Virus record (IMG/VR): IMGVR_UViG_3300044949_000917
Location: 1-21,050 of that record
DNA: 21,050 bases
Direction: 5' to 3' (one strand)
From: a virus
The translations under genes and the position numbers were made by a program. Below, in pieces: positions 2,283 through 16,980 of this stretch; position 1 is the first letter of the stretch, and each line of letters begins with the position of its first letter. The notes beneath the pieces were generated by a model. That model searched no databases, was not told where the DNA came from, and saw only the letters and a list, made by a program, of their open reading frames with translations.

Positions 2283-2643
2283 CGTCGTTTCCCTCGACGA
2301 GAGGGAGTTCGCCCGTTTCTACAAAGTGGATCCATCAACAATACTCCCTGTTCTTGGGGTGGCGGCCAAGCGTGGCTCGTTGACGATTGGCGCCGGCGGC
2401 GTCGTTCACGGCAACGATGGGCGCGTCTGGGGCTTCCTTGACATCTTGCCTGGCAGGGCGCCGAAAACGACGTTGCGGATACTGTTGAGGTTTTTGAGGG
2501 ACCGCGCTGCGGACGGGATCAAGGAGATCCGCGTCACCAGGGACGCCAGTCTCTCAACATCCGGGCCCCTTCTGATGAGGCTGGGGTTCACCAAAACTGA
2601 TGAAACTTACGAAGACAAAGAGGTGTGGATATGGCGGGCATAG
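2272..2643 (+). CDS. Small GNAT-fold-like phage protein (T7 gp13 position)
   Basis: This codes for about 123 residues from ATG 2272, overlapping the nozzle stop by 11 bases. A longer start at ATG 2224 (139 residues) is possible; neither has a good Shine-Dalgarno, so the start is uncertain. The sequence has the look of an N-acetyltransferase fold: a strand with GVVHGNDGRVWGFLDI, a helix rich in Leu/Arg after a PGRAPKTTLR turn (the acyl-CoA loop region), and a late LLMRLGFTKTDETYEDKEVW segment, typical of the last helix and strands of GNAT proteins. GNAT-like small proteins commonly sit between the nozzle gene and the internal core proteins in podoviruses. Whether this one is an enzyme or a structural internal virion protein cannot be told from sequence. 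Confidence 0.6.
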   Translation: MRLDVVSLDEREFARFYKVDPSTILPVLGVAAKRGSLTIGAGGVVHGNDGRVWGFLDILPGRAPKTTLRILLRFLRDRAADGIKEIRVTRDASLSTSGPLLMRLGFTKTDETYEDKEVWIWRA

Positions 2644-3182
2644 CTGCAATCGTCGGCATTGCCAGTTCTCTGGCTAGTGCCGCGGTTGGAATGGCTGGCG
2701 CTGCGGCGCAGGCGAAATACATCAAGGCGCAAGCCCAGGCGGAACAGCAGCAGCTTGGCATGCAGGCGGCCGAAGAGCGCGCCGTTGGGACGCGACGGGC
2801 GCAGGATAAGGTCAGAGAGGGAAGCCTATTGCTGTCACGCCAACAGGCTGTGGCAGCTGCATCTGGAGCTGGCGCGACGGATCCGACAGTCCTTGAGCTC
2901 GCCGGCACCCTCAAGCGCGACACCAACGTCCAATCCCGTGAGTTCGCTCGGCAAGGGCTCGAGAAGGCTCAGATGCTTGAGTACCAGGGCAGGGTTGGGA
3001 ATGAGCTTGCCAAGGCCCAGGCTGGCATGACGATCCTGGGAGGCATCGGCAATACGATCAGCGCTGTTGGTGAGGCGATCGGCGGTTTCGGCGACGCATA
3101 CGCAAAGTATGGTCGCGGCATGCCGACATCCGCGAGCCTCGGCGCTTCAAGTCCCGCTTCCTGGTACAACGGCTATAACTGA
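2631..3182 (+). CDS. Internal virion protein, T7 gp14-like (183 aa)
   Basis: ATG 2631 is preferred over the in-frame GTG at 2625 because an AGAGG at 2619-2623 lies seven bases upstream. The protein starts with a hydrophobic, Ala/Gly-rich segment (about residues 3-24, containing IAAIVGIASSLASAA). A long Ala/Gln/Glu-rich helical middle follows (AQAKYIKAQAQAEQQQ), then a Gly/Ala region and a short tail ending in WYNGYN. This layout is that of phage internal core or ejection proteins of the T7 gp14 class, which form the outer-membrane part of the DNA ejection channel. Position directly after the GNAT-like gene and before larger ejection proteins agrees. It overlaps the preceding gene by 13 bases. 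Function is inferred from composition and order. Confidence 0.65.
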   Translation: MAGIAAIVGIASSLASAAVGMAGAAAQAKYIKAQAQAEQQQLGMQAAEERAVGTRRAQDKVREGSLLLSRQQAVAAASGAGATDPTVLELAGTLKRDTNVQSREFARQGLEKAQMLEYQGRVGNELAKAQAGMTILGGIGNTISAVGEAIGGFGDAYAKYGRGMPTSASLGASSPASWYNGYN

Positions 3183-3195
3183 TTGAGGTTCTTCG

Positions 3196-5229
3196 ATGCC
3201 CAAGCTTCCTGACGCAACCGACCTATCAAGAGTAGGGTTCGATGCGGTTCGCCCGTTTGTGCAGATACCAGACGTAAACATCGAAGGCGCCTACAATCGG
3301 CTGGCAACTGGTATTTCAAATCTGGGAACTGGGTTTGAGAGGCTTGGCAATAAGGTTGAGGACGCCAACCAGAGAGCGGAGCGCTTCAGAACAAAGCTTG
3401 GTCTGGTGAAGTCTGAGAAGGACTACACAGAGCGGACAAAGTCTCTCGACCCCAAAGATCCGAACTATGTCACCAAGAAGAAGACAGCTCGGCGCGAGGC
3501 GTTTGCTCCCGTACTAACATCTGTCGTTGATCCTCAGAACAAGATGGCTTTCGACACAGAGACAGAGCGTGACTACATCGCGATCAGCAAAAAGGCGGAA
3601 GCCGATCGCAGGATTGCAATGAAGCAGCAGACAAAAGATGATTTGCTCTTTTATGCCGCAAGCCTTGAGGAAAAGATCGCAAACGGAAAGTTCAATGGTA
3701 ACGCCGCCGAAGAGATCAGGTCTATGGTCGATGACAGCCCTGATCTCGATGACGATGAAAAAAATATGCTGGCGTCCGATCTCGTTCCAAGAGTGGGACG
3801 GAGCTCACTGCTGTCCACTGCCAAGAACTATATCCAGAACGGTGTCGCACTGACGCCAGAGCTAAGGCGCGCGATCTCAGACCTGGAAGATGGCTCTGAT
3901 GCGCCTGTCTGGCTTGGTGGGTTTCTTGCGAGGACGGCAACTCTCGAGAGCCGAGGCGGCATCAGGAATGAAGACCCGGAGGATGCTGATCGTATCGGTC
4001 CCTATAAGCTCGATCCTGCTGCAATCAAAGTGGCCGGACTTGAGCCGAACGACAGGCTGGACGCCAGCGCGAGCACAGAAGGTGCGGCAAGGTTGGCGCT
4101 CTCAAACTATGGAGAATTGAATTCGGCGCTCGGCCGAGAGCCAACCATGTCTGAGCTCTACATCGCCCACAAGAGCGGTGTCTCAAACACAATCAAGCTA
4201 TTGCAGAACCCCGACGCACCAGCGGCTGATATTGTTGGGGATGATGTCACCGAGAAGAATGGTGGATGGGCGGCAATGACAGCTGGTCAACTGGCTGCGA
4301 TCATGGACTTGAGATACGACGGCGAAAACGCTACCGACGATCCTGATGACATCCGTGAAGCTCTTTCGACAGATCCGGCATTCGCGTCCCTCGACAGCCG
4401 GGAGATCGAAAGGATCGTTAACTCATCGTTGGAGTTCGGTTCGGCTGGTGGATCACCTCAAGACGAGGCCATCGAAGCGCAGCGCAGATCGATATTCAAT
4501 GAATTTGCAGAGCTCGATACGTCTGGCGATCTCAACCAGGACTGGGTGAGGGCGCAGGCATACAGCGGCCTATTGTCAGCCAGAGAGGTCCGGCTCTTTT
4601 CCAATGCAGTCGCTAATCGTGATCGGGTCATTGCCGATGCTCCTGACCAGGTCGCGTCAATCGCCAGGCTGGTGAATGTGGCCTCAAATGAAAGCGATCT
4701 CAGTGAGGCCAGATCTGCCCTGGACGAGGCTTATGCAGATGGGATGGTCAGCAATCGCACGAAGAAGCGCCTGCTCGCCGGTATGAAGGCGCGGAGCGCG
4801 ACGCTCAACGGAGACAGTGATGCCGTTACCCGCAGCGAGGGCTTGATCTCTCGCATGGTTCGTAGTCGCGACTATTCAAGCGGGAATAGCGTGGATGATG
4901 AGATGGCCGAATTGACTGCGCGTATGACCTTGCAGGACTGGCGCGAGAGGAACCCGAAGGCAACGGATGTCGAGATTCTGGCAGAGGCCCAGAAGATAGG
5001 TAAGGCGACAGCAATGGACAGGGTTGAGACTGCAAGGAACAGTCTCGACTTGCCGAGTGGTCTTGCTGGCGTAAACAGGCGATCGATAGACCGAGAGTCG
5101 ATCTACAAATACGCTGCCAAGCTGCAGCAAAGTCGCCCGAAGCCTGGACGATATGAGGAGTACATGCGCGACGTGGCGCTGCTCAAGAAGTGGCTCGAGA
5201 TCATCGACATACAGGAAATGGTTGTCTAA
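3196..5229 (+). CDS. Ejection protein with lytic transglycosylase (SLT-like) domain, 677 aa
   Basis: ATG 3196 follows a GAGGT at about 3185-3189. Residues 1-235 are charged and helical. Residues about 240-350 look like a lytic transglycosylase domain: LARTATLESRGG gives the probable catalytic Glu251, followed by RIGPYKLDPAAIKVAG (the GxxQ/P-like strand region), a DRLDASASTEGAARLA segment, and LGREPTMSELYIAHKSG, which is the usual family ending. The rest, about 350-677, is helical with many Asp/Glu and no recognised motif. In T7 the equivalent domain sits in gp16, where it cuts peptidoglycan so that the ejection tube can cross the wall; here it is in the middle of the third internal protein. 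The gene ends in TAATG with the next one, so the two are probably translationally coupled. Confidence 0.75.
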   Translation: MPKLPDATDLSRVGFDAVRPFVQIPDVNIEGAYNRLATGISNLGTGFERLGNKVEDANQRAERFRTKLGLVKSEKDYTERTKSLDPKDPNYVTKKKTARREAFAPVLTSVVDPQNKMAFDTETERDYIAISKKAEADRRIAMKQQTKDDLLFYAASLEEKIANGKFNGNAAEEIRSMVDDSPDLDDDEKNMLASDLVPRVGRSSLLSTAKNYIQNGVALTPELRRAISDLEDGSDAPVWLGGFLARTATLESRGGIRNEDPEDADRIGPYKLDPAAIKVAGLEPNDRLDASASTEGAARLALSNYGELNSALGREPTMSELYIAHKSGVSNTIKLLQNPDAPAADIVGDDVTEKNGGWAAMTAGQLAAIMDLRYDGENATDDPDDIREALSTDPAFASLDSREIERIVNSSLEFGSAGGSPQDEAIEAQRRSIFNEFAELDTSGDLNQDWVRAQAYSGLLSAREVRLFSNAVANRDRVIADAPDQVASIARLVNVASNESDLSEARSALDEAYADGMVSNRTKKRLLAGMKARSATLNGDSDAVTRSEGLISRMVRSRDYSSGNSVDDEMAELTARMTLQDWRERNPKATDVEILAEAQKIGKATAMDRVETARNSLDLPSGLAGVNRRSIDRESIYKYAAKLQQSRPKPGRYEEYMRDVALLKKWLEIIDIQEMVV

Positions 5230-8105
5230 TGAGAACAGATAACATCGCCGAGGCGCTGCGCGCTCAATACGACGACGATCAGTTCAATGAGGCTGTGAAG
5301 TACGTCAATTCTCTGGCGTCGAAGGCGCCGCCTGAAACATTGGCAGCAGAGGGTCGGGTCTCGGATGACATTCTCATTCCGAAGCCACAGAACCGGGCCA
5401 ATCCAAATCCGTCGAAGCCGCAGCAACCCGGCTTCATGGACGTTCTCGACAAACAGACCGCTGGCGGCCGGAACTTGATGGCAGAAGGCGCTGCTGAGTT
5501 CCGCGACACACCAGGGATGTCGAAGTACCTCATTCCAGGCTCCCCGCAGCTGAAGCTCGCCATCGGCGCTCTTGATACCATTGTGGGTGCAGCGGCCACC
5601 CTGGGTGGGTCTGCTGCTACAGAACTGGCGCGTCCATTCGTTGCAATGGGTATCCTGGATGAGAACCAGGTTGGGAACCCCGAGAAGGCGGCGCGCGATC
5701 TGCGAGCCATGATGGACGTCGCTGCTCCAGAGTTGACGGGCTTTGGGATGGCGGGCCCACGGATGGCGTCCGGCCTCACCGCGCGCGAAGCTCTGCAGGT
5801 CGAGGGTGCCAATGCGTCTGCTAGATTGGAGGCACGAGGACCAGCGTTCTCTGGCCAGCCAGCTATGGCCATGAGCGGTGTTGATCCTGCGACAGCTGGA
5901 AAAGCGGTCGCCAATGCGGTGGACACGACCATTGCCAAGGTTGGTGAGATGGCTGGTGGAAAGCAGCCATCAGTGCCTCCGGTATCAATTGCCCCAGAAG
6001 AACGGACGGCCATCAAGGCCGTGGCGGACGCTCCAAATGAAAAGATCAGCCTTGATGCCTCATCCAAGTTGACGCTGGCAGAGGACACAGTACGCCGCGT
6101 CAAGGAACAGTATTCCCCAGAGAAGGGCTTTCTCCCCGTGAATGTAACGGGCGGTGAGTTCAAGAAAACGAAATCTGGAGATGTCGTATTTGAGCCCGCT
6201 TTCCAGCAGCCAGCATATGCCTTCCATATACCTCCGAAGGGAGTATCGAAAGGCCAGTGGCGCGACCAGCTGGCTGCGAAGATGTTTAGCGACGTTCAAG
6301 ATGTAGTGACGCGGGCGAAGGCCGGTGACACACAAGCCAAGTTCATCTTGTCGCAGGCAAACTGGTATCGCGCCATGCGGACACGTCTGCGTGATGAGTT
6401 CGGCGGACTTGGTGACACTTTTGCCGACGTTCTTGGTACTACTTCCGCGCAGACGGGCGTTGAGCAGAACTGGGATAACGCAATCGAAATCCTTCGCCGG
6501 TTCAGCCGTGGAGAATACGACAACGAGATCAACGCTTATGCCAAGCGTGTGGCAGATGGTGAGACGGTTGACGGGAAGACGCTTACCCAACTGTTCAAGG
6601 ATGGTGAGTTCCCGCTGATCACCAAGGCGTCTGGGCAGCTATTCAACGCCAACAGCCCCACATCAATGGGCGCACTTCTCAACATGTTCCGCGACATCAA
6701 GGCGGGGGCTGCGCCAAAAACACCGAATTTCACCGGGAACCTTATTGGCTACAGCAATAAGGCAACGATCGATGTCTGGGCAGCTAGGTATCTCAGAAAC
6801 AAAGCTGGACTGCCATATATACCGCCACCGGCCGAAAAGGCTGTTGCTGGAAAACATCTAACAGGCTCAACGCTTCACGATCCAAAGATCGGAACTGAGT
6901 TCGGCTTTGGCCAAGAGGTCTTTGCCAAGGCTGCAGAAGACATCAACAAGAGTGGTGTCGTGCAAGCCTATGATCCGAGCCTTGGCAAGATTGGCGAGGA
7001 TGATCTCCAGGCCGTTGTCTGGTTTATCGAAAAAGACAAGTGGACAAGGAACGGCTGGACTTCCAAAGCTGGAGAAGGTGGCTCTCTTGACTTTGAGGCG
7101 GGCTTGGCAGGCTCTGAGAAACCAAGGCGGATCAAGGAGCTTCGCCGCCAGATCAACAAAGGGTTCAAGGCGCCACCCCAGCGGAAAACAGAGAGCGATG
7201 CAGACTATGAGGCTCGTGTCTCTCAGGCTCAACGCCAGTACGACGACGCCAAGCTAGCCGCAAAGGAAGAGCTGGACAGCCTGGCCGCACCGCTGGAACG
7301 GACCGTTCTTGGCGTCTCTGCTGAGCGGCCAGGCGCTACGCCGTCAAACTACGTGCAGGCTGAGCTCGCTGCTGAGTTTGATGATGTCGTGCGAGACGAT
7401 ACTACCGTTGAGGCATATAAGCTGACCAATACCTACGGCCGTTTCATGAACACGAATGAGAGGGCGTTGGATGCCGAGTTTGTAACCCGGCAAGGGTTCG
7501 ACCCGGAGCCGCTCAAGCGGCGTCTGGTTGATGTTGGTAAGCGGTATGATCAGGACGCCGTTTTCATGTCAAAGGTGCTGCGTGACAGGACGCACCCGAA
7601 TGCTCGCCCCGGAATAGAGATCTATTTCAAGGATCGACAGGCCGCAGAATTTGCCGCTCGTATCAGCGACAAATTGACTCAGTATGGGATCGACGGGTTC
7701 ACCTTCGTAACCGATGCACGACAGCAGGACAGGGTCAATGTCCAGTCCCTATCTGGTGGGTCGGACACGGCAGGAATTACTGGCTTGAGATTGCAGTACA
7801 TTCCTGAGTTCGATGAATCCTATGATGAAGCTCGGAGAGCGCAGATTATGTCCGAGAAGCAGGATCTATTCAACGACATCGTTGCCGATCTGCTTGAGAA
7901 TGAAGATGGAATTTCTACTGCGAATGTGGTTTACTACGACACAACTGTTTTCAGGAAGGAAAACTACGATGCGGTCCTTGGCAGAGCAAGTGAAGGCGGT
8001 AGAGGAGAAGTTCGGGTTCGACAGCAAGATCGCCCAGATGTACCGGGATCAGCTGGCGGCCGAACAAGCAGGCCAGTCGGCAAAAGAAATATGGCTGACA
8101 GGTAG
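5229..8105 (+). CDS. Large putative internal virion / polyvalent-type phage protein, 958 aa
   Basis: The start is ATG 5229, sharing its A with the preceding TAA (TAATG) and preceded by AGGAA at 5213-5217. An upstream in-frame GTG at 5190 is buried in the previous gene and not needed. Residues 1-60 are polar. A hydrophobic Ala/Gly stretch lies near residues 115-140 (LAIGALDTIVGAAATLGG). Around 375 there is a QANWYRAMRTRLRDEFGG segment, and around 501-523 FTGNLIGYSNKATIDVWAARYL. I associate modules like this with large polyvalent phage proteins of unknown role. A segment near 798-830 (YFKDRQAAEFAARISDKL) looks like an alpha/beta domain. No catalytic site is clear. Order suggests an ejected virion protein. 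The last 45 codons overlap another gene in a different frame, and this frame there is Gly/Arg-rich and protein-unlike. Confidence 0.6.
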   Translation: MRTDNIAEALRAQYDDDQFNEAVKYVNSLASKAPPETLAAEGRVSDDILIPKPQNRANPNPSKPQQPGFMDVLDKQTAGGRNLMAEGAAEFRDTPGMSKYLIPGSPQLKLAIGALDTIVGAAATLGGSAATELARPFVAMGILDENQVGNPEKAARDLRAMMDVAAPELTGFGMAGPRMASGLTAREALQVEGANASARLEARGPAFSGQPAMAMSGVDPATAGKAVANAVDTTIAKVGEMAGGKQPSVPPVSIAPEERTAIKAVADAPNEKISLDASSKLTLAEDTVRRVKEQYSPEKGFLPVNVTGGEFKKTKSGDVVFEPAFQQPAYAFHIPPKGVSKGQWRDQLAAKMFSDVQDVVTRAKAGDTQAKFILSQANWYRAMRTRLRDEFGGLGDTFADVLGTTSAQTGVEQNWDNAIEILRRFSRGEYDNEINAYAKRVADGETVDGKTLTQLFKDGEFPLITKASGQLFNANSPTSMGALLNMFRDIKAGAAPKTPNFTGNLIGYSNKATIDVWAARYLRNKAGLPYIPPPAEKAVAGKHLTGSTLHDPKIGTEFGFGQEVFAKAAEDINKSGVVQAYDPSLGKIGEDDLQAVVWFIEKDKWTRNGWTSKAGEGGSLDFEAGLAGSEKPRRIKELRRQINKGFKAPPQRKTESDADYEARVSQAQRQYDDAKLAAKEELDSLAAPLERTVLGVSAERPGATPSNYVQAELAAEFDDVVRDDTTVEAYKLTNTYGRFMNTNERALDAEFVTRQGFDPEPLKRRLVDVGKRYDQDAVFMSKVLRDRTHPNARPGIEIYFKDRQAAEFAARISDKLTQYGIDGFTFVTDARQQDRVNVQSLSGGSDTAGITGLRLQYIPEFDESYDEARRAQIMSEKQDLFNDIVADLLENEDGISTANVVYYDTTVFRKENYDAVLGRASEGGRGEVRVRQQDRPDVPGSAGGRTSRPVGKRNMADR
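7953..7960 (+). promoter_or_regulatory. Strong Shine-Dalgarno for the overlapping 61-aa gene
   Basis: AGGAAGGA lies inside the 3' end of the 958-residue gene, eight bases before ATG 7969. It is one of the best ribosome binding sites in the plus-strand half. It decides the start of the out-of-frame downstream gene. Confidence 0.6.
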
Positions 8106-8154
8106 CGTTTCCTCGATGCCGAAGAAAGCTACGCCATCGAGCGATAGTAAATAG
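7969..8154 (+). CDS. Small overlapping gene, 61 aa, unknown function
   Basis: ATG 7969 has an AGGAAGGA eight bases upstream. The first 137 bases overlap the end of the 958-residue gene in another frame. The product is Lys/Glu/Gln-rich and helical (EQVKAVEEKFGFDSKIAQMY, then RDQLAAEQAGQSAKEIW) with a Ser/Lys tail (KKATPSSDSK). It reads like a real small protein, whereas the competing frame there reads as Gly/Arg/Ser-rich. Two explanations fit: a separate small gene started by internal ribosome entry, or a natural frameshifted C-terminus of the large protein. The good ribosome binding site favours the first. The gene ends 24 bases before a terminator stem. No family was recognised. Confidence 0.65.
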   Translation: MRSLAEQVKAVEEKFGFDSKIAQMYRDQLAAEQAGQSAKEIWLTGSVSSMPKKATPSSDSK

Positions 8155-8178
8155 ACCCCCCCACCATACCACCTGCTG

Positions 8179-8208
8179 AAACCCGGCCATCGTGCCGGGT
8201 TTTTATTT
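8179..8208 (+). terminator. Rho-independent terminator inside the late region
   Basis: A perfect 9-bp stem (AAACCCGGC at 8179-8187 paired with GCCGGGTTT at 8194-8202) with a six-base loop runs directly into a T-rich tract (TTTTTATTTT, about 8200-8209). It lies between the 61-residue gene and the 1226-residue gene and points along the plus strand. Only about 15 bases separate it from the next ATG (8224), leaving no space for a promoter in between. Confidence 0.85.
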
Positions 8209-8223
8209 TGAGGAAACCCAGAA

Positions 8224-11200
8224 ATGGCAGAACTGAAGATCCCCGCTGGTGTAGGCGAGGAGCGTGCGAAGACCGCTCAGTCGATGAATGCAGACAAGGC
8301 GCCAGCACCTGCTCCGGTGACGTCGCCATTCGAAAAATCTGCGGCGCAGTCTTCTGCTCAGTGGGCCCTCCAGGACGCCCAAGGCATCCGATACGACATA
8401 AACGGCAATCCTGTAGCCGAGGCCACAGAACCAGTCGCCACGCCACCAGCACCTGCAGGCGGTGAGGATCAGGCGCCGGCAGTTACAGAGAATCAATCGC
8501 CAGCAGTTACAGAGGATCAATCTCCAGGCGTACTCGGTACGGTCATGGATACCGTTGATGCCGTTGCCAATCCCAGAAACGTCAGCGCTGTTCTTAGAAA
8601 CGTGTCGGAAATACCGTCCGCTGTGGCCAGTGGTGGCATCAGGGGAATTGATGCAATCATCGGTATTGGTGACATGCTGCAAGAGGCCATGCCAGTACCT
8701 GGCCTGCAGCTCTTCGACCTCGAAGGTAATTTCGACCCAAAGTTCGTAGGCGCTGATGAGATAGCCCGCGACACCAAGATCAAGAATGAGGCTGGCTATT
8801 CTGCGGTGCCCAATTTCATAGGTGAAGCAGAGACGCCGGTCGGGAGCGCCACACAGGGGATTGCCCAATTCCTGGCGGGGTTTGGTCTTGCGGGCCGGGC
8901 TCTGAAGGCTGCAGCGTATGGGGCCACATCTATCCCTTTCTGGATGAGGGCATCTGGTCAGGGCATGTTCTCTGACTTCGCTGCCTTCGATGGGCACGAG
9001 GAACGTCTGTCCAACTGGCTGGCCCAGGAGGGGAACCCAGAAATCGTTCGTACCGTTGGCAGCCTTCTTGCGGCAGAGCAGGATGATACCGAGCTCGAGG
9101 GGCGTCTGAAGAATGTCCTTGAGGGCGTTGGCCTTGATGTGGCGTTCGGAACGCTGCTTTCTGGCATCAAGTCGATGAAGAAAGCCCGCCGAGCCAAGGC
9201 AGATCTCGGCGCCGAGACATATGCTGAGGCAGCTCGGAAACTTGAGGCTGAGGCGCTGGCGTCTGGAACACTGCCGTCATCTGGCAAAGACCCATTGGCC
9301 GCGATCGGCAGCTCTGACCCATCTGCCCCTCTGGTGGTCAAGTCGCCGCCGCTTGGTACTACTGATCCAGCTGCAGGCGTGGCTTCGTCGTCGCTGACTG
9401 GCGCAAAGAAAGTCCCTCTTGAGACAGGCGATGTGTTCATAAACTTCGCCAGGATAAACACCGAAGAGGACGTCAAGTCTGTGATCAGGCAGATGGCCGA
9501 GGCGTCTTCAGCTGAGATACAAAAGGCCCAGCGTGGCATCGTATCAAACAAGGCCACTGAGATCGCTGCCGATGCCAAGTATGACGAAGCTTTCCAGTCG
9601 ATCATGAGCCGTCGTGTCGGCGAGGGGGTTCCGCCACAGGATGTTCAACTTGCCATGCGCCGCCTATGGGCGTCATCAGCCGAGAAGCTTATGGAGGCTG
9701 CAAAAGCTTTCGAGGGGTCTACGACCGCAGAGAATGCACTAGCATTCCGGCGCATGGTGCTAGTTCACAAGATGATACAGGAACAGGTTCTGGCCGTTCG
9801 AACCGAGACGGCCAGAGCACTGCAGCAGTGGAGCATACCAGCTGGTGCTGTTGCCAAGGACAAGATCGACGCGATCAACAAGGCGATCGCTGACGGCGGC
9901 GGTCTTGATGCCACTGTCGAGATGGCGCGCCAGTTTGCTGCTATCTCTGACCGCGTGGCACTTGATCCGAGAAATATGGCGAAGCTCGACAATGTCGTCG
10001 AAGAGACGGCAGGGGCAAAGACGCTGCAGGCCGTGCAGGAAGGGTGGAAGGCTGTATCCCTCATGTCAGGCGTCAAGACCCATTTCCGCAACATCATTTC
10101 AAACACCGGGATGATCTACTCCGCGATCGCAGAGCGTGCTGTCGCAGCCAGATTGGCCGGTCTCATTGACGAACCGACAGAGGTGGCTGTTGGTGAGGCG
10201 TCCAGATTTGCAACGGGCGTGATCCACAATCTGGGCGATGCGTGGCGTGATGCGGTTGAAACATTCAGAACCGGAAACATGAAGCTTGGCGAGAGCCAGG
10301 TTGAGAGTGGAAACCGAGCTCTTGCAATCACGCAGCTTAATCCAAAGACGTCTATCGGTGCGGCAGTCCAGAAGCTAGCAGCTGCGCCGACCAGTTTTGT
10401 TTTTGGTGCGCTTCAGGCATCGGACCAGTTCTTCAAGACCCTCAACTATTCCGGTGAGATCTATGCACAGGCGTGGCGAAAGGCCGTGAAGGAAGGCACT
10501 GCACAAGGCAAGACGATCGAGGAAATCAAGGAGCGAGCTCTCGAGCTCATGAATGCTCCGAGCCGAGACATCAAGGATGCGGCAACGGCGCAAGCTGCCA
10601 AGGCTACCTTTACGGAAGATCCCGGCAAGATCACCAAGTGGCTGATGCAGGGACGCGAGAAGATACCTGGGGCACACTTTGTGGTGCCGTTCCTCATGAC
10701 ACCTGGAAACATCTTCCGCACCTCCATGCTCTCGACCCCTCTGGCGCCGTTGATGTCTAGGTACAAGGAAGCGATCGCCAAGGGCGGCGCTGAAGCGACA
10801 CTTGCCAGGACGCGGATGGGCATTGGGTCTTCCGTCATGCTCACAACGATGGATCTCGCACTGAACGACAAGATCAGTGGGGGCGGCCCAGATCCACAGA
10901 GCTCTGAATACAAGACACTGATCAGGACTGGATGGCGCCCATACTCCGTGAAGATCGGAGACAAGTGGGTTAGCTACCGCGGCCTAGAGCCATTCACCAC
11001 GGTCATCGGAATGGGAGCCGACATAGGCGAGTCCATCAAGAAGATGGACAACGCCTCCGGTGACACCTCGGACACCTTCGCAGCGCTATCAGATATGGCC
11101 GCTTCCATGATCTTTGGCGTTGGCCAGAACATGCTGGAACGCTCCTACCTTACTGGAATGGCGGATTTGATAGACGCTGTTCGCCAATCTGACACGAAGG

Positions 11201-11904
11201 GGCCGCAGTGGTTCGAAAAGTTTGTGTCGAGCTTCGTCCCGCGCATTCTTCTCGATGCACGCCAAGTCACAGACCCGACTATCTACGACGCCAGAACCCT
11301 CATTGACAGCATCAAGCAGAAGATACCTGGGATGCAAGGTGACCTTGTCCAGCGTCGAGATGAGTGGGGGAGAGGTCTCAAGATGGATAGCGGCCTTGGG
11401 CGTGCATACGACATCATCAGTCCACTCACCGTCACAAAGTCCAACCCGGAGCCGATCGACAAGGTTCTATTGGAACAGGGCTTGTCACTAGGCATCAGGA
11501 ACCGGGAGATCAGCGTCGAGGGTGTCCGTATCAACATCAGCAACAGGGCTGACGTTCACAACAGATTTCTCCAGCTCCGCGGCTCGACCAAGCCATCAGA
11601 CCTTGGACTGGCTGGCAAGAAGCTGAAGGCGAAGTACGGTGATCTCACGGCTCTTGAAGTGCTTAACCAGGTAGTGGCCGGAAAGCACAGGCTCTCGTCA
11701 AAATACGATGAGGAAGATGACGGCCAAGATGGCGGGAAGCACAAGCTACTCCGATCGATCCTAACAGACTACTCTAGGGCGGCGACCACAAAAACCCTCG
11801 AGGAGTTTCCAGATCTTCTTGATGCCGCCAAGGACAAGCGTGACCAGCGCAAACGACGGGCAAGTCAGGGAAGCGAGCTATACAGCTCAACTGTCGAAGA
11901 ATAG
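8224..11904 (+). CDS. Very large internal virion / ejection-type protein, 1226 aa
   Basis: ATG 8224 follows GAGG at 8210-8213. The N-terminal 110 residues are Ala/Pro/Gln-rich and low in complexity, including a short peptide repeat (8464-8532). Further on are Ala/Gly hydrophobic helices (GIAQFLAGFGLAGRALKAA), a segment near residue 613 (LMSGVKTHFRNIISNTG) and one near 899 (TGWRPYSVKIGDKWVSYRG, then EPFTTVIGMGADI). I recognise the last two as recurring in large phage virion proteins that lack an assigned enzyme activity. The length is close to T7 gp16 (about 1300 residues), and the position just before the lysis genes also fits, but the transglycosylase domain is in another gene here. The C-terminus is charged (KDKRDQRKRRASQGSELYSS). 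Role as an ejection protein is inferred. Confidence 0.65.
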   Translation: MAELKIPAGVGEERAKTAQSMNADKAPAPAPVTSPFEKSAAQSSAQWALQDAQGIRYDINGNPVAEATEPVATPPAPAGGEDQAPAVTENQSPAVTEDQSPGVLGTVMDTVDAVANPRNVSAVLRNVSEIPSAVASGGIRGIDAIIGIGDMLQEAMPVPGLQLFDLEGNFDPKFVGADEIARDTKIKNEAGYSAVPNFIGEAETPVGSATQGIAQFLAGFGLAGRALKAAAYGATSIPFWMRASGQGMFSDFAAFDGHEERLSNWLAQEGNPEIVRTVGSLLAAEQDDTELEGRLKNVLEGVGLDVAFGTLLSGIKSMKKARRAKADLGAETYAEAARKLEAEALASGTLPSSGKDPLAAIGSSDPSAPLVVKSPPLGTTDPAAGVASSSLTGAKKVPLETGDVFINFARINTEEDVKSVIRQMAEASSAEIQKAQRGIVSNKATEIAADAKYDEAFQSIMSRRVGEGVPPQDVQLAMRRLWASSAEKLMEAAKAFEGSTTAENALAFRRMVLVHKMIQEQVLAVRTETARALQQWSIPAGAVAKDKIDAINKAIADGGGLDATVEMARQFAAISDRVALDPRNMAKLDNVVEETAGAKTLQAVQEGWKAVSLMSGVKTHFRNIISNTGMIYSAIAERAVAARLAGLIDEPTEVAVGEASRFATGVIHNLGDAWRDAVETFRTGNMKLGESQVESGNRALAITQLNPKTSIGAAVQKLAAAPTSFVFGALQASDQFFKTLNYSGEIYAQAWRKAVKEGTAQGKTIEEIKERALELMNAPSRDIKDAATAQAAKATFTEDPGKITKWLMQGREKIPGAHFVVPFLMTPGNIFRTSMLSTPLAPLMSRYKEAIAKGGAEATLARTRMGIGSSVMLTTMDLALNDKISGGGPDPQSSEYKTLIRTGWRPYSVKIGDKWVSYRGLEPFTTVIGMGADIGESIKKMDNASGDTSDTFAALSDMAASMIFGVGQNMLERSYLTGMADLIDAVRQSDTKGPQWFEKFVSSFVPRILLDARQVTDPTIYDARTLIDSIKQKIPGMQGDLVQRRDEWGRGLKMDSGLGRAYDIISPLTVTKSNPEPIDKVLLEQGLSLGIRNREISVEGVRINISNRADVHNRFLQLRGSTKPSDLGLAGKKLKAKYGDLTALEVLNQVVAGKHRLSSKYDEEDDGQDGGKHKLLRSILTDYSRAATTKTLEEFPDLLDAAKDKRDQRKRRASQGSELYSSTVEE
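8464..8532 (+). repeat. 24-bp tandem repeat, about 2.9 copies, in-frame
   Basis: Units begin at 8464, 8488 and 8512; the first reads GAG GAT CAG GCG CCG GCA GTT ACA and later units differ at a few bases. They encode the peptide repeat (E)(D/N)Q(A/S)P(A/G)V(T) in the flexible N-terminal region of the 1226-residue protein. Because units are 24 bases, gain or loss would keep the frame. Confidence 0.8.
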
Positions 11905-12180: not shown

Positions 12181-12300
12181 ATGTCAAAGAAGACAGCGAA
12201 CGCTGCGGTCAAGCCGTGGCGCCGGAAAGTCGTGCGCCGTCGCAGGGCGCACCCTCTCAACCACCAGAAGAAACTAGGACCAAAGGAGCAGCATAAGTGA
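12181..12300 (+). CDS. Arginine-rich 39-aa peptide coupled to the endolysin
   Basis: ATG 12181 begins a 39-codon frame that stops at TGA 12298-12300, overlapping the GTG start of the endolysin as GTGA. The product is very basic, with a central KPWRRKVVRRRRAHP and a tail KKLGPKEQHK, and has no hydrophobic segment. Its own ribosome binding site is weak, but AAAGGAG at 12282-12288, the site for the endolysin, lies within it. The four-base stop/start overlap and fit between two lysis genes are the evidence that it is translated. It might be a nucleic-acid-binding or membrane-active peptide, or mainly a leader that couples endolysin translation. No family was recognised. Confidence 0.5.
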   Translation: MSKKTANAAVKPWRRKVVRRRRAHPLNHQKKLGPKEQHK

Positions 12301-12818
12301 ACTGGCCACATCAGTCGCAGTGCGACGCATTCTATGGCAACCCACGCGGGCGCAACGGAACATACAGCCCGACATGGGCAAGGGCGAACCTGGTGTTCGT
12401 TCCAGTTCCTTTCAAGATGAAGTGTGCCTGGGAACCCTACAGCGCCATCAGCCGCATTCAGATCCACAAGAGGTGCGCCGACTCTCTCGGGCGTGTTCTC
12501 GCCGACATCTGGTCTCGAGCGTCCAGGAACCAGAAGACGATCGATGAGTGGGGCGCAAGCCTGTTTGGCGGATCGTTCGCATTTCGCACGATGCGTGGAA
12601 GTTCTTCTCTCTCGATGCACAGCTGGGGCTGCGCGATCGACCTGGACCCGGCACGCAATGGGCTAGGCGACTACACTCCTGTCCTGACGCCTGACCATCC
12701 CGTGGCCCTGGCATTCCGCCAGGAAGGGTGGGTTCACGGAGCGGACTGGAACGGTAACAAGAAGGTCGCGGACGAACGCCGTCCCGACGCGATGCATTTC
12801 CAGGCCGCATTGGTCTGA
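12297..12818 (+). CDS. Endolysin, M15 (VanY/D-Ala-D-Ala carboxypeptidase-like) peptidase, 173 aa
   Basis: The start is GTG 12297, eight bases after a strong AAAGGAG. The zinc-site motifs of M15 peptidases are present: SMHSWGCAIDLD gives ligands His108 and Asp115, and RPDAMHFQ gives the third ligand, His167. Between them GWVHGADWNG matches the G-x-x-x-G-x-D-W strand that precedes the final motif. Enzymes of this family cut peptide cross-links in peptidoglycan. There is no signal peptide, so release to the periplasm would need the holin encoded just downstream. The 173 residues include an N-terminal part (1-75) that is not typical of the catalytic core but has Trp/Tyr-rich turns seen in phage M15 lysins. 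Placement between membrane proteins makes the lysis role convincing. Confidence 0.88.
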   Translation: MNWPHQSQCDAFYGNPRGRNGTYSPTWARANLVFVPVPFKMKCAWEPYSAISRIQIHKRCADSLGRVLADIWSRASRNQKTIDEWGASLFGGSFAFRTMRGSSSLSMHSWGCAIDLDPARNGLGDYTPVLTPDHPVALAFRQEGWVHGADWNGNKKVADERRPDAMHFQAALV

Positions 12819-15871: not shown

Positions 15872-15918
15872 TAGGTTTCCTTTCAAGGGGTGGGCAGTTT
15901 GCCCAAAGGGGTGGGCAG
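15723..15918. repeat. Four GGGGTGGGCA direct repeats around the integrase 3' end
   Basis: The 10-mer GGGGTGGGCA occurs on the plus strand at 15723-15732, 15776-15785, 15887-15896 and 15908-15917; the last three extend to GGGGTGGGCAG. All point the same way. They lie inside coding sequence of the transglycosylase and the last codons of the integrase (the protein ends LLPTPLGKLPTP). Directly repeated 10-mers next to an integrase gene resemble arm-type binding sites of a tyrosine integrase, but this is unproven. Confidence 0.5.
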
Positions 15919-16980
15919 AAGGTGAGGGATTTCGTCCTCTTTCCGTTCCATTTCCTGCAGCATCTTGAACGCAGCCTGAAGCGCCTGGCGCTTGCGGTTG
16001 GCCTCGCGGGTATAGACCGCGCTCATGGTGTTTGTCGTCCACCCAAACAACGCCTGAAGCTCCTGCTCCGAGCCACCGTTCTCAGCCACGATCGTCGCCG
16101 CCAGCTTGCGGATACCATGCGCTGACTTGGACTTGATGCCAGCCTCCCGGCACCAACGCTTGAATGCGTTGCCAAAGCTCTCTTTCGTCATCGGGCGCCC
16201 GTATTGCGACGAGAAGAAGGACATGTCGCCCAATGGTCCTGCGGCCAAGGCTTCAGACAGGCGCGGCAGGATCGGGATGTAAAGCTCGACGTTATTCTTG
16301 TGGGCGGGAATGTAAATGATCTGGTCTCTGACGTGCTGGCGTCCGACGCAGACCATGTCCGAGCGGCGCATCCCCGTATTGATCAGCAACTCCAGCGCCA
16401 GGCGCTCGCGGGTTCCGACGTCCCAGCGAGCCCGATAGGCAGCGATGTCATCCATTGACCAGGGCGGGAAGCCTTTGGTCTTCACTTTGATGAATTTGAC
16501 GTCTTTCGCCGGATCGGTATCAACCAGCTTCTCTTCTTTCGCCCATCGGAAAAGCGCACGCATTGTCTTCAGGAAGTTGTTTGCCGCTGCCGGTGTTTCT
16601 TTGCGCTTTTCCCGGCCCGCGCGGATCGCGTCATCAGTGATCTCTTCGACCGCTCGATCGCCACTTTTCTCCAAGACATGCTGCAGGATGTTATCGCGCT
16701 GCCTGCGAGTTGCGGAAGACGTCTGGGACCAGTCACTGGATCGCTTCCAGTGCTCGACCAGCCAACGCAGCGTACCGCGACTGGCGCGGACTTGTGGCGG
16801 CTTGCCGATGCTGATACCAGCAAGTGCAGCGTCGTAAGCCGCGCGCCACTCGGAGCTTCCGTAATCTCCAGGCAAACGTATTCTTTCGCCGTGGCGAGCG
16901 CGGAAAAACCAATAGACCTTTCCGTGCCTATTCACATGACGGTTTACATAAGGGAGTTTTTGTTTGGGCATGTCGCTCAT
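15883..16980 (-). CDS. int: Tyrosine recombinase / phage integrase, 365 aa
   Basis: The protein has the full catalytic set: Arg205 in NTGMRRSDM, Lys228 in AHKNN, His288-x-x-Arg291 in AHGIRK, Trp314 in LFGW (where many members have His) and nucleophile Tyr323 in SAVYTREA. Residues about 70-155 are the helical SAM-like core-binding domain. Residues 1-60 (RHGKVYWFFRARHGERIRLPG) look like an N-terminal arm-binding domain. The ATG (16980) shares a base with the upstream TAA, so the start is supported by coupling; Met4 is an alternative. It would integrate and excise the genome at attP/attB, probably needing a directionality factor. Unusually, it sits inside a long operon with replication/recombination genes. 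The C-terminal tail contains an LPTP repeat caused by the DNA repeats there. Confidence 0.93.
   Translation of the reverse strand: MSDMPKQKLPYVNRHVNRHGKVYWFFRARHGERIRLPGDYGSSEWRAAYDAALAGISIGKPPQVRASRGTLRWLVEHWKRSSDWSQTSSATRRQRDNILQHVLEKSGDRAVEEITDDAIRAGREKRKETPAAANNFLKTMRALFRWAKEEKLVDTDPAKDVKFIKVKTKGFPPWSMDDIAAYRARWDVGTRERLALELLINTGMRRSDMVCVGRQHVRDQIIYIPAHKNNVELYIPILPRLSEALAAGPLGDMSFFSSQYGRPMTKESFGNAFKRWCREAGIKSKSAHGIRKLAATIVAENGGSEQELQALFGWTTNTMSAVYTREANRKRQALQAAFKMLQEMERKEDEIPHLLPTPLGKLPTP

Follow-up and report, generated by a model that had tools for sequence, protein, structure and literature searches.

The 3' end of a large structural gene in an uncultivated virus raised the question of whether a single stretch of DNA encodes two proteins there, and in which relation the two reading frames stand to each other. 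The window, i.e., the whole linear IMG/VR record of 21,050 bases (1–21,050), carries a T7-like structural operon in which a tail protein (69–2282; PHROG 376), a 139-aa gene, a gp14-like internal virion protein (2637–3182; PHROG 418), and a 677-aa gene at the gp15 position (3196–5229, plus strand), bearing a transglycosylase-like stretch (PHROG 22520 and 4067), precede a large gene of 958 codons, here termed P2 (5229–8105, plus strand). The stop of the 677-aa gene overlaps the P2 start as TAATG (5227–5231). A small gene of 61 aa starts in the +1 frame of P2 (7969–8154, stop included, plus strand), sharing 137 nt with it (7969–8105), and is followed by a gp16-like internal virion protein of 1226 aa (8224–11904, plus strand; PHROG 6651, E 1.5e-49) and an endolysin (12297–12818). 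Between the small and gp16-like genes, in the middle of the structural operon, lies a terminator-like hairpin of ten pairs followed by TATTTT (8178–8203, plus strand), which is a consensus match only, with three such sites in 2 kb against a shuffle mean of 1.9. Separately, a 365-aa ORF on the minus strand (15883–16980) looked tyrosine integrase-like by eye, which, if true, would make this T7-like phage temperate; an annotated integrase is also found in the named relative MW202801. As detailed below, the small gene is very probably a conserved gene of an uncultivated group of T7-like podoviruses, with its own Shine-Dalgarno sequence and ATG, across which the stop of P2 has shifted between lineages.

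The ATG of the small gene (7969–7971) is preceded by the Shine-Dalgarno sequence AGGAAGGA (7953–7960), located within P2 codons, and by an eight-base spacer, AAACTACG (7961–7968), all on the plus strand; re-reading of the sequence returned exactly the start codon, spacer, and 61-codon frame given in the initial annotation. That annotation had also called the ribosome-binding site strong; its predicted duplex of −6.5 kcal/mol is more stable than those of all 27 other upstream out-of-frame ATGs in P2. Across 70 distinct loci, 84% of the small-gene ATGs reached a duplex of −5 kcal/mol or lower vs 15% of 1613 control out-of-frame ATGs, with weaker signals in some loci, such as the nested L010 clade (−2.9 kcal/mol) and locus L078 (−2.7 kcal/mol). 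Wherever P2 reads FR or MR at the Shine-Dalgarno position, the 0-frame Arg residue is encoded by AGG or AGA, and the groups with NGGISY carry the site as GGAGG, such that the ribosome-binding site is kept while the P2 amino acids encoded by it change. As is characteristic of overlapping genes, the small gene thus possesses an initiation signal of its own, observed both in the Shine-Dalgarno enrichment and in an ATG retained in 112 of 112 loci, and we infer that it is translated.

The small frame is conserved as a protein across relatives. When 572 six-frame segments were scored with a profile built from 27 distinct relatives, with the window left out, the small frame of the window came first at E = 2e-15 and the runner-up reached E = 1.3. 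In a first pass, 149 loci had a P2 end, 61 of which duplicated another over the final 300 nt; the frame was found in 86 of the 88 distinct ends, the remaining two contigs stopping inside P2. A second pass drew on 219 loci, from which 116 distinct P2 ends were retained, the remaining loci being duplicates or lacking a P2 end; all 112 distinct loci reaching past the P2 end (window included) harbor the small gene with an ATG start in the +1 frame, four further distinct loci break off within P2, and L008 is truncated within the small gene. Presence holds by construction in 20 of the 86 first-pass loci, which the small protein itself had retrieved; the other 66, as well as 26 added later, came from P2 searches or are the window itself. 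The later-added loci, which lie outside the profile, had bit scores of 48–91, equivalent to E values between 4e-11 and 1e-24 in a nominal set of one million sequences. The relatives read comprise 80 of 358 and 80 of 471 in two P2 searches, i.e., a minority of those known, and the loci are related, so that these counts are not independent events. Over codons 2–45, the window and its 70 full-overlap relatives are 37.5% identical in the small frame and 19.4% in the 0-frame, the small frame being the more alike in 70 of 70 comparisons. The initial annotation would have been contradicted by relatives in which the 0-frame tail persists but the other frame is missing; the small frame was instead found in 112 of 112 loci, and the variable part is the 0-frame tail. 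The comparison establishes the small gene, its frame, and its conservation, and a sequencing error or chance open frame, favored by nothing beyond the single-contig source, is effectively ruled out by the identical +1 relation in 112 distinct loci together with the profile match.

Two explanations had been offered for this frame, an internally started gene or a frameshifted extension of P2, and only the former withstood the comparison. A programmed +1 frameshift would make the small frame an alternative C-terminus of P2 rather than a separate protein. In line with it, the 60 codons preceding the ATG in the window leave the +1 frame open, the codon pair TTT AGG, which we take to resemble +1 shift sites with a rare AGG, precedes the small ATG in many loci, and an internal virion protein of Alteromonas virus H4/4 is reportedly produced through a −1 shift (PMC5658483). 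However, P2 of L078, to which three viral contigs are 100% identical, ends 7 nt before the small ATG, and the +1 frame is blocked directly ahead of the ATG (0 codons) in L076 and 2 codons upstream in L034, L148, and L224. Because P2 stops before the small gene in the former and the +1 frame is shut in the latter four, an internal start is supported over a frameshift product. Moreover, TTT AGG is missing from the L030-L036, L039, and L016/L019 groups, which retain the ATG, and an XXXYYYZ heptamer occurs within the possible shift window in just 40 of 112 loci, whereas the small ATG is kept in all 112. With neither an upstream frame open in all loci nor a conserved shift site, a programmed frameshift product was rejected as highly improbable.

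The position of the P2 stop relative to this internally started gene separates 111 loci into five classes: 1 separate, 31 short (17–56 nt of overlap), 9 partial (101–158 nt, the window having 137), 48 overrun (P2 stop up to 120 nt past the small gene), and 22 nested (P2 stop further on). In the arrangement that we propose, the small gene and the P2 core would be the constant parts and the P2 stop the variable one. Depending on the lineage, this stop precedes the small gene, falls 17–56 nt into it or part way along it (the latter being the case in the window), sits just beyond it on the start codon of the following gene, or comes hundreds of codons later, in which case the small gene is nested in full. 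As an additional observation, the small protein is longer (94 aa) in the short-overlap loci L163, L169, L171, and L173, where the added end carries YDPSTIDQIVNRVRG or a variant of it. The classes cluster on the P2 tree, with 12 changes vs 51.5 in shuffles (108 rows), on a tree that is unrooted and has several long end branches, including that of the window; at least 12 changes among the five classes are needed on it, and nesting arose more than once, L076 lying apart from the main nested group. P2 growing over the small gene is the likely direction, and only likely rather than proven because the tree is unrooted. Beyond the small gene, the nested extensions of P2 include a zeta-toxin-like domain (L017, 4237–5964; E 1.4e-13), an ADP-ribosyltransferase-like domain (L076, 5108–5764; E 4e-7), and a PcfJ-like domain (L118, 8065–12135; E 1.9e-8), and, given these additions, the P2 C-terminus seems to be a site of domain addition. 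In the alignment of the relatives of 5229–8105, one P2 relative matches endolysin PHROG 7348 at 2.2e-20, a lineage in which a cell-wall domain appears to be fused to P2.

The conserved core of P2 spans approximately residues 270–908. The earlier proposal that the conserved part ends near residues 910–915 agrees well with the stops of short-overlap relatives, 17–56 nt past the small ATG, and with the AlphaFold2 model of the window P2, which falls below a pLDDT of 50 for residues 927–958. Also as described in the initial annotation, the 0-frame turns Gly/Arg-rich over the last ~45 residues of P2, in the part overlapping the small gene, and this tail is predicted to be disordered. Across 22 distinct loci in which the small gene is overrun or nested, the first, second, and third codon positions of the small gene differ by 0.35, 0.24, and 0.46, the usual coding pattern, and amino acid identity is 0.57 in the small frame vs 0.38 in the 0-frame, the former being the more conserved in 225 of 231 pairs. 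Nevertheless, 23 of 29 distinct loci keep the 0-frame free of stops along the entire small gene, whereas synonymous recoding of the small protein with the codon usage of each locus would be expected to leave 1.8 such loci. The fourfold sites of the small frame coincide with the first positions of P2 codons. In overrun/nested pairs with a core difference of at least 0.3, their divergence is 0.63–0.68 times that of the fourfold sites in the P2 core; in the same bins, the control ratio, taken from short-overlap loci beyond the point where P2 stops, is 0.95–1.08. At core differences of 0.05–0.3, the ratios are 0.76 for overrun and 0.58 for the control, the latter on 410 sites and too noisy to use, and the bin below 0.05 is uninformative. 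Restricting the analysis to stop-safe sites, at which T cannot create a stop, gave 0.61 in overrun/nested loci vs 1.08 in the control, and because the deficit persists at these sites, the tail appears to be constrained in its residues as well as in its openness. Both frames are under selection in the overrun and nested loci, the classes that this comparison covers. Dual coding is established in this way for the overrun lineages, where the codon evidence supports a 0-frame tail that is translated and selected.

A further feature of the overrun class concerns the end of the tail. All 46 overrun loci that have a downstream ORF (46 of 46) place the P2 stop between −10 and +10 nt from its ATG (two more overrun loci had no such ORF by that rule), and the commonest joint is exactly TGATG or TAATG, the latter also joining P2 to the preceding 677-aa gene in the window. 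The corresponding distance is 134–603 nt in the short-overlap class. With the stop positioned on the start codon of the following gene, the overrun tail may act as a translational bridge that would hand terminating ribosomes to that gene for reinitiation, while the small gene would be read from inside. The bridge does not apply to the window, because its P2 stop falls 119 nt short of the gp16-like start with the hairpin in between.

Alternatively, the small gene may be real and the overlapping P2 tail a passive by-product of stop loss with no role. The 0-frame tail is indeed the less conserved frame, that of the window is predicted to be disordered, and 31 short-overlap loci do without it; however, the excess of open 0-frames, the fourfold deficit at stop-safe sites, and the meeting of the stop with the downstream start codon in 46 of 46 overrun cases all count against passivity, which we consider rather unlikely. 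For the 45-residue tail of the window itself, which has no close relatives to compare, the passive explanation may hold.

Regarding the proteins themselves, the small-protein consensus from 76 sequences is MxTLxExLxxxIxxxGExSPxVQMLRNQIxAEKSGKSxQELYLTGSVKK, in which Q28, T44, and G45 are invariant and the C-terminal end bears the conserved motif Y/W-[LIV]-T-G-S/A-V. The model of the window protein predicts two helices (residues 4–15 and 20–44) with moderate confidence only (mean pLDDT 71.6). No membrane stretch is present, the highest 19-residue hydropathy mean being 0.53, and Cys occurs in 1 of 97 distinct small proteins. The best family match among 76 members was phrog_7334 (12 members, E 1.8e-4), covering positions ~940–983 of a 1078-position profile of unknown function, and the best Pfam match reached E 0.0025 in two members. 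P2 is strongly conserved in 46 sequences and belongs to no named family, with weak matches to DUF7178 in 38 of the 46 (best 4.6e-5) and to PHROG 3842 in 39 (best 3.8e-5). No match to the window P2 was found by tblastn in 50,697 phage records (E ≤ 1e-5), nor to the L039 P2 among cultured phages (E ≤ 0.01), and the small protein of L005 returned at E ≤ 1 four records of archaeal rod-shaped viruses (E 0.03–0.2), taken as chance. Uncultivated relatives of P2 are numerous, amounting to 40 loci with the window protein as query and to 358 and 471 relatives with alignments in later searches, and P2 also occurs on two MAG contigs, one from Hyphomicrobiales and one from Verrucomicrobiota. Against the PDB, P2 produced no sequence match and no fold match at E ≤ 0.001, and a BFVD fold search returned proteins of uncultured Caudovirales, mostly unnamed or uncharacterised. 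Neither P2 nor the small protein matched an ejection-protein PHROG.

The linkage between the two genes is established by the neighborhoods, as 34 of the 35 loci checked among those found with the small protein have P2 directly upstream, and the remaining one, L056, starts at the gene. The wider synteny is not tidy across relatives: by tblastn, the 677-aa protein at the gp15 position occurs upstream of P2 in the window alone (1 of 86 loci), and the gp16-like protein occurs downstream in 44 of 86 and is unseen in 42, 24 of which extend at least 3 kb downstream. From the gene order, we infer that P2 and the small protein may belong to the virion. T7 also has small virion proteins, such as gp6.7 and gp7.3. 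Because of the strict P2 linkage, the position between ejection genes, and the lack of a membrane stretch, we tentatively propose that the small protein is soluble, folds as a helical hairpin, and serves the DNA-ejection module as a P2 partner or assembly factor, produced in amounts proportional to those of P2; this role is possible though still doubtful. Host-directed small genes are usually patchy, and both this pattern and the strict linkage to P2 (34 of 35 loci) weigh against a host-directed factor, e.g., in anti-defence, acting outside the virion module. Such a factor has in its favor that host processes are frequent targets of small proteins made by phages (PMC11323111), and that no family match says otherwise, but we regard it as somewhat improbable.

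On a broader reading that returns to the P2-partner role, and that we put forward as speculative, P2 and the small protein would form an unrecognised ejection module of widespread uncultivated podoviruses, preserving the stepwise swallowing of a small neighbor: from a short overlap, through a tail reaching exactly to the next start codon, to a fusion with new domains beyond the nested gene, with the small gene under selection throughout. The small gene is likely missed or mis-started by gene callers that limit overlaps. The surviving intermediates allow a test, from sequence alone, of how a pair of existing genes ends up on shared DNA and at what cost to each, and a candidate partner is now named for a large, strongly conserved, and uncharacterised protein of the ejection operon.

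Comparison with known systems places the locus among overlapping genes while setting it apart in several respects. The gene order of the window matches six named phage records and resembles T7 gp14/gp15/gp16 in the succession of tail tube B, the 139-aa gene, and the gp14-like, gp15-position, and gp16-like genes. Unlike in those six records, in which the gene before the gp16-like one ends within ~10 nt of its start, P2 and the small gene constitute an extra pair here, and the searches above (PDB sequence and fold for P2, ejection-protein PHROGs for both) showed no similarity to the T7 ejection proteins. Ejection proteins are reported to be mosaic, gp15-like ones being recognised mainly by size and place (PMC8954989). 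In the Rz/Rz1 lysis genes, too, a larger gene harbors a small one in its +1 frame, in nested and overlapping forms depending on the phage, and the present pair shares both traits; the small protein, however, has no membrane stretch or lipobox, and an Rz1-type spanin or lysis gene was rejected on the Cys content (1 of 97) and the hydropathy maximum (0.53). Termination-reinitiation gene pairs with TGATG or ATGA joints (cf. PMC6728339 and PMC10666635) resemble the overrun loci in that the P2 stop meets the next start, but here the coupling frame crosses an entire third gene. In mechanism, the arrangement is of the type seen in phiX174, in which gene B is nested in gene A. There, as here, the C-terminal part of a long gene crosses a small virion-assembly gene in another frame, an overlap attributed to C-terminal extension (PMC8227390). 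The present case differs in involving tailed dsDNA phages and unrelated proteins. We found no paper on the P2/small gene pair, which is not proof of absence from the literature; the overlapping-gene mechanism is known, of the phiX174 A/B type, and the gene family and the overlap series are new as far as we found, with all states, from separate to nested, surviving here in related lineages, unlike in phiX174.
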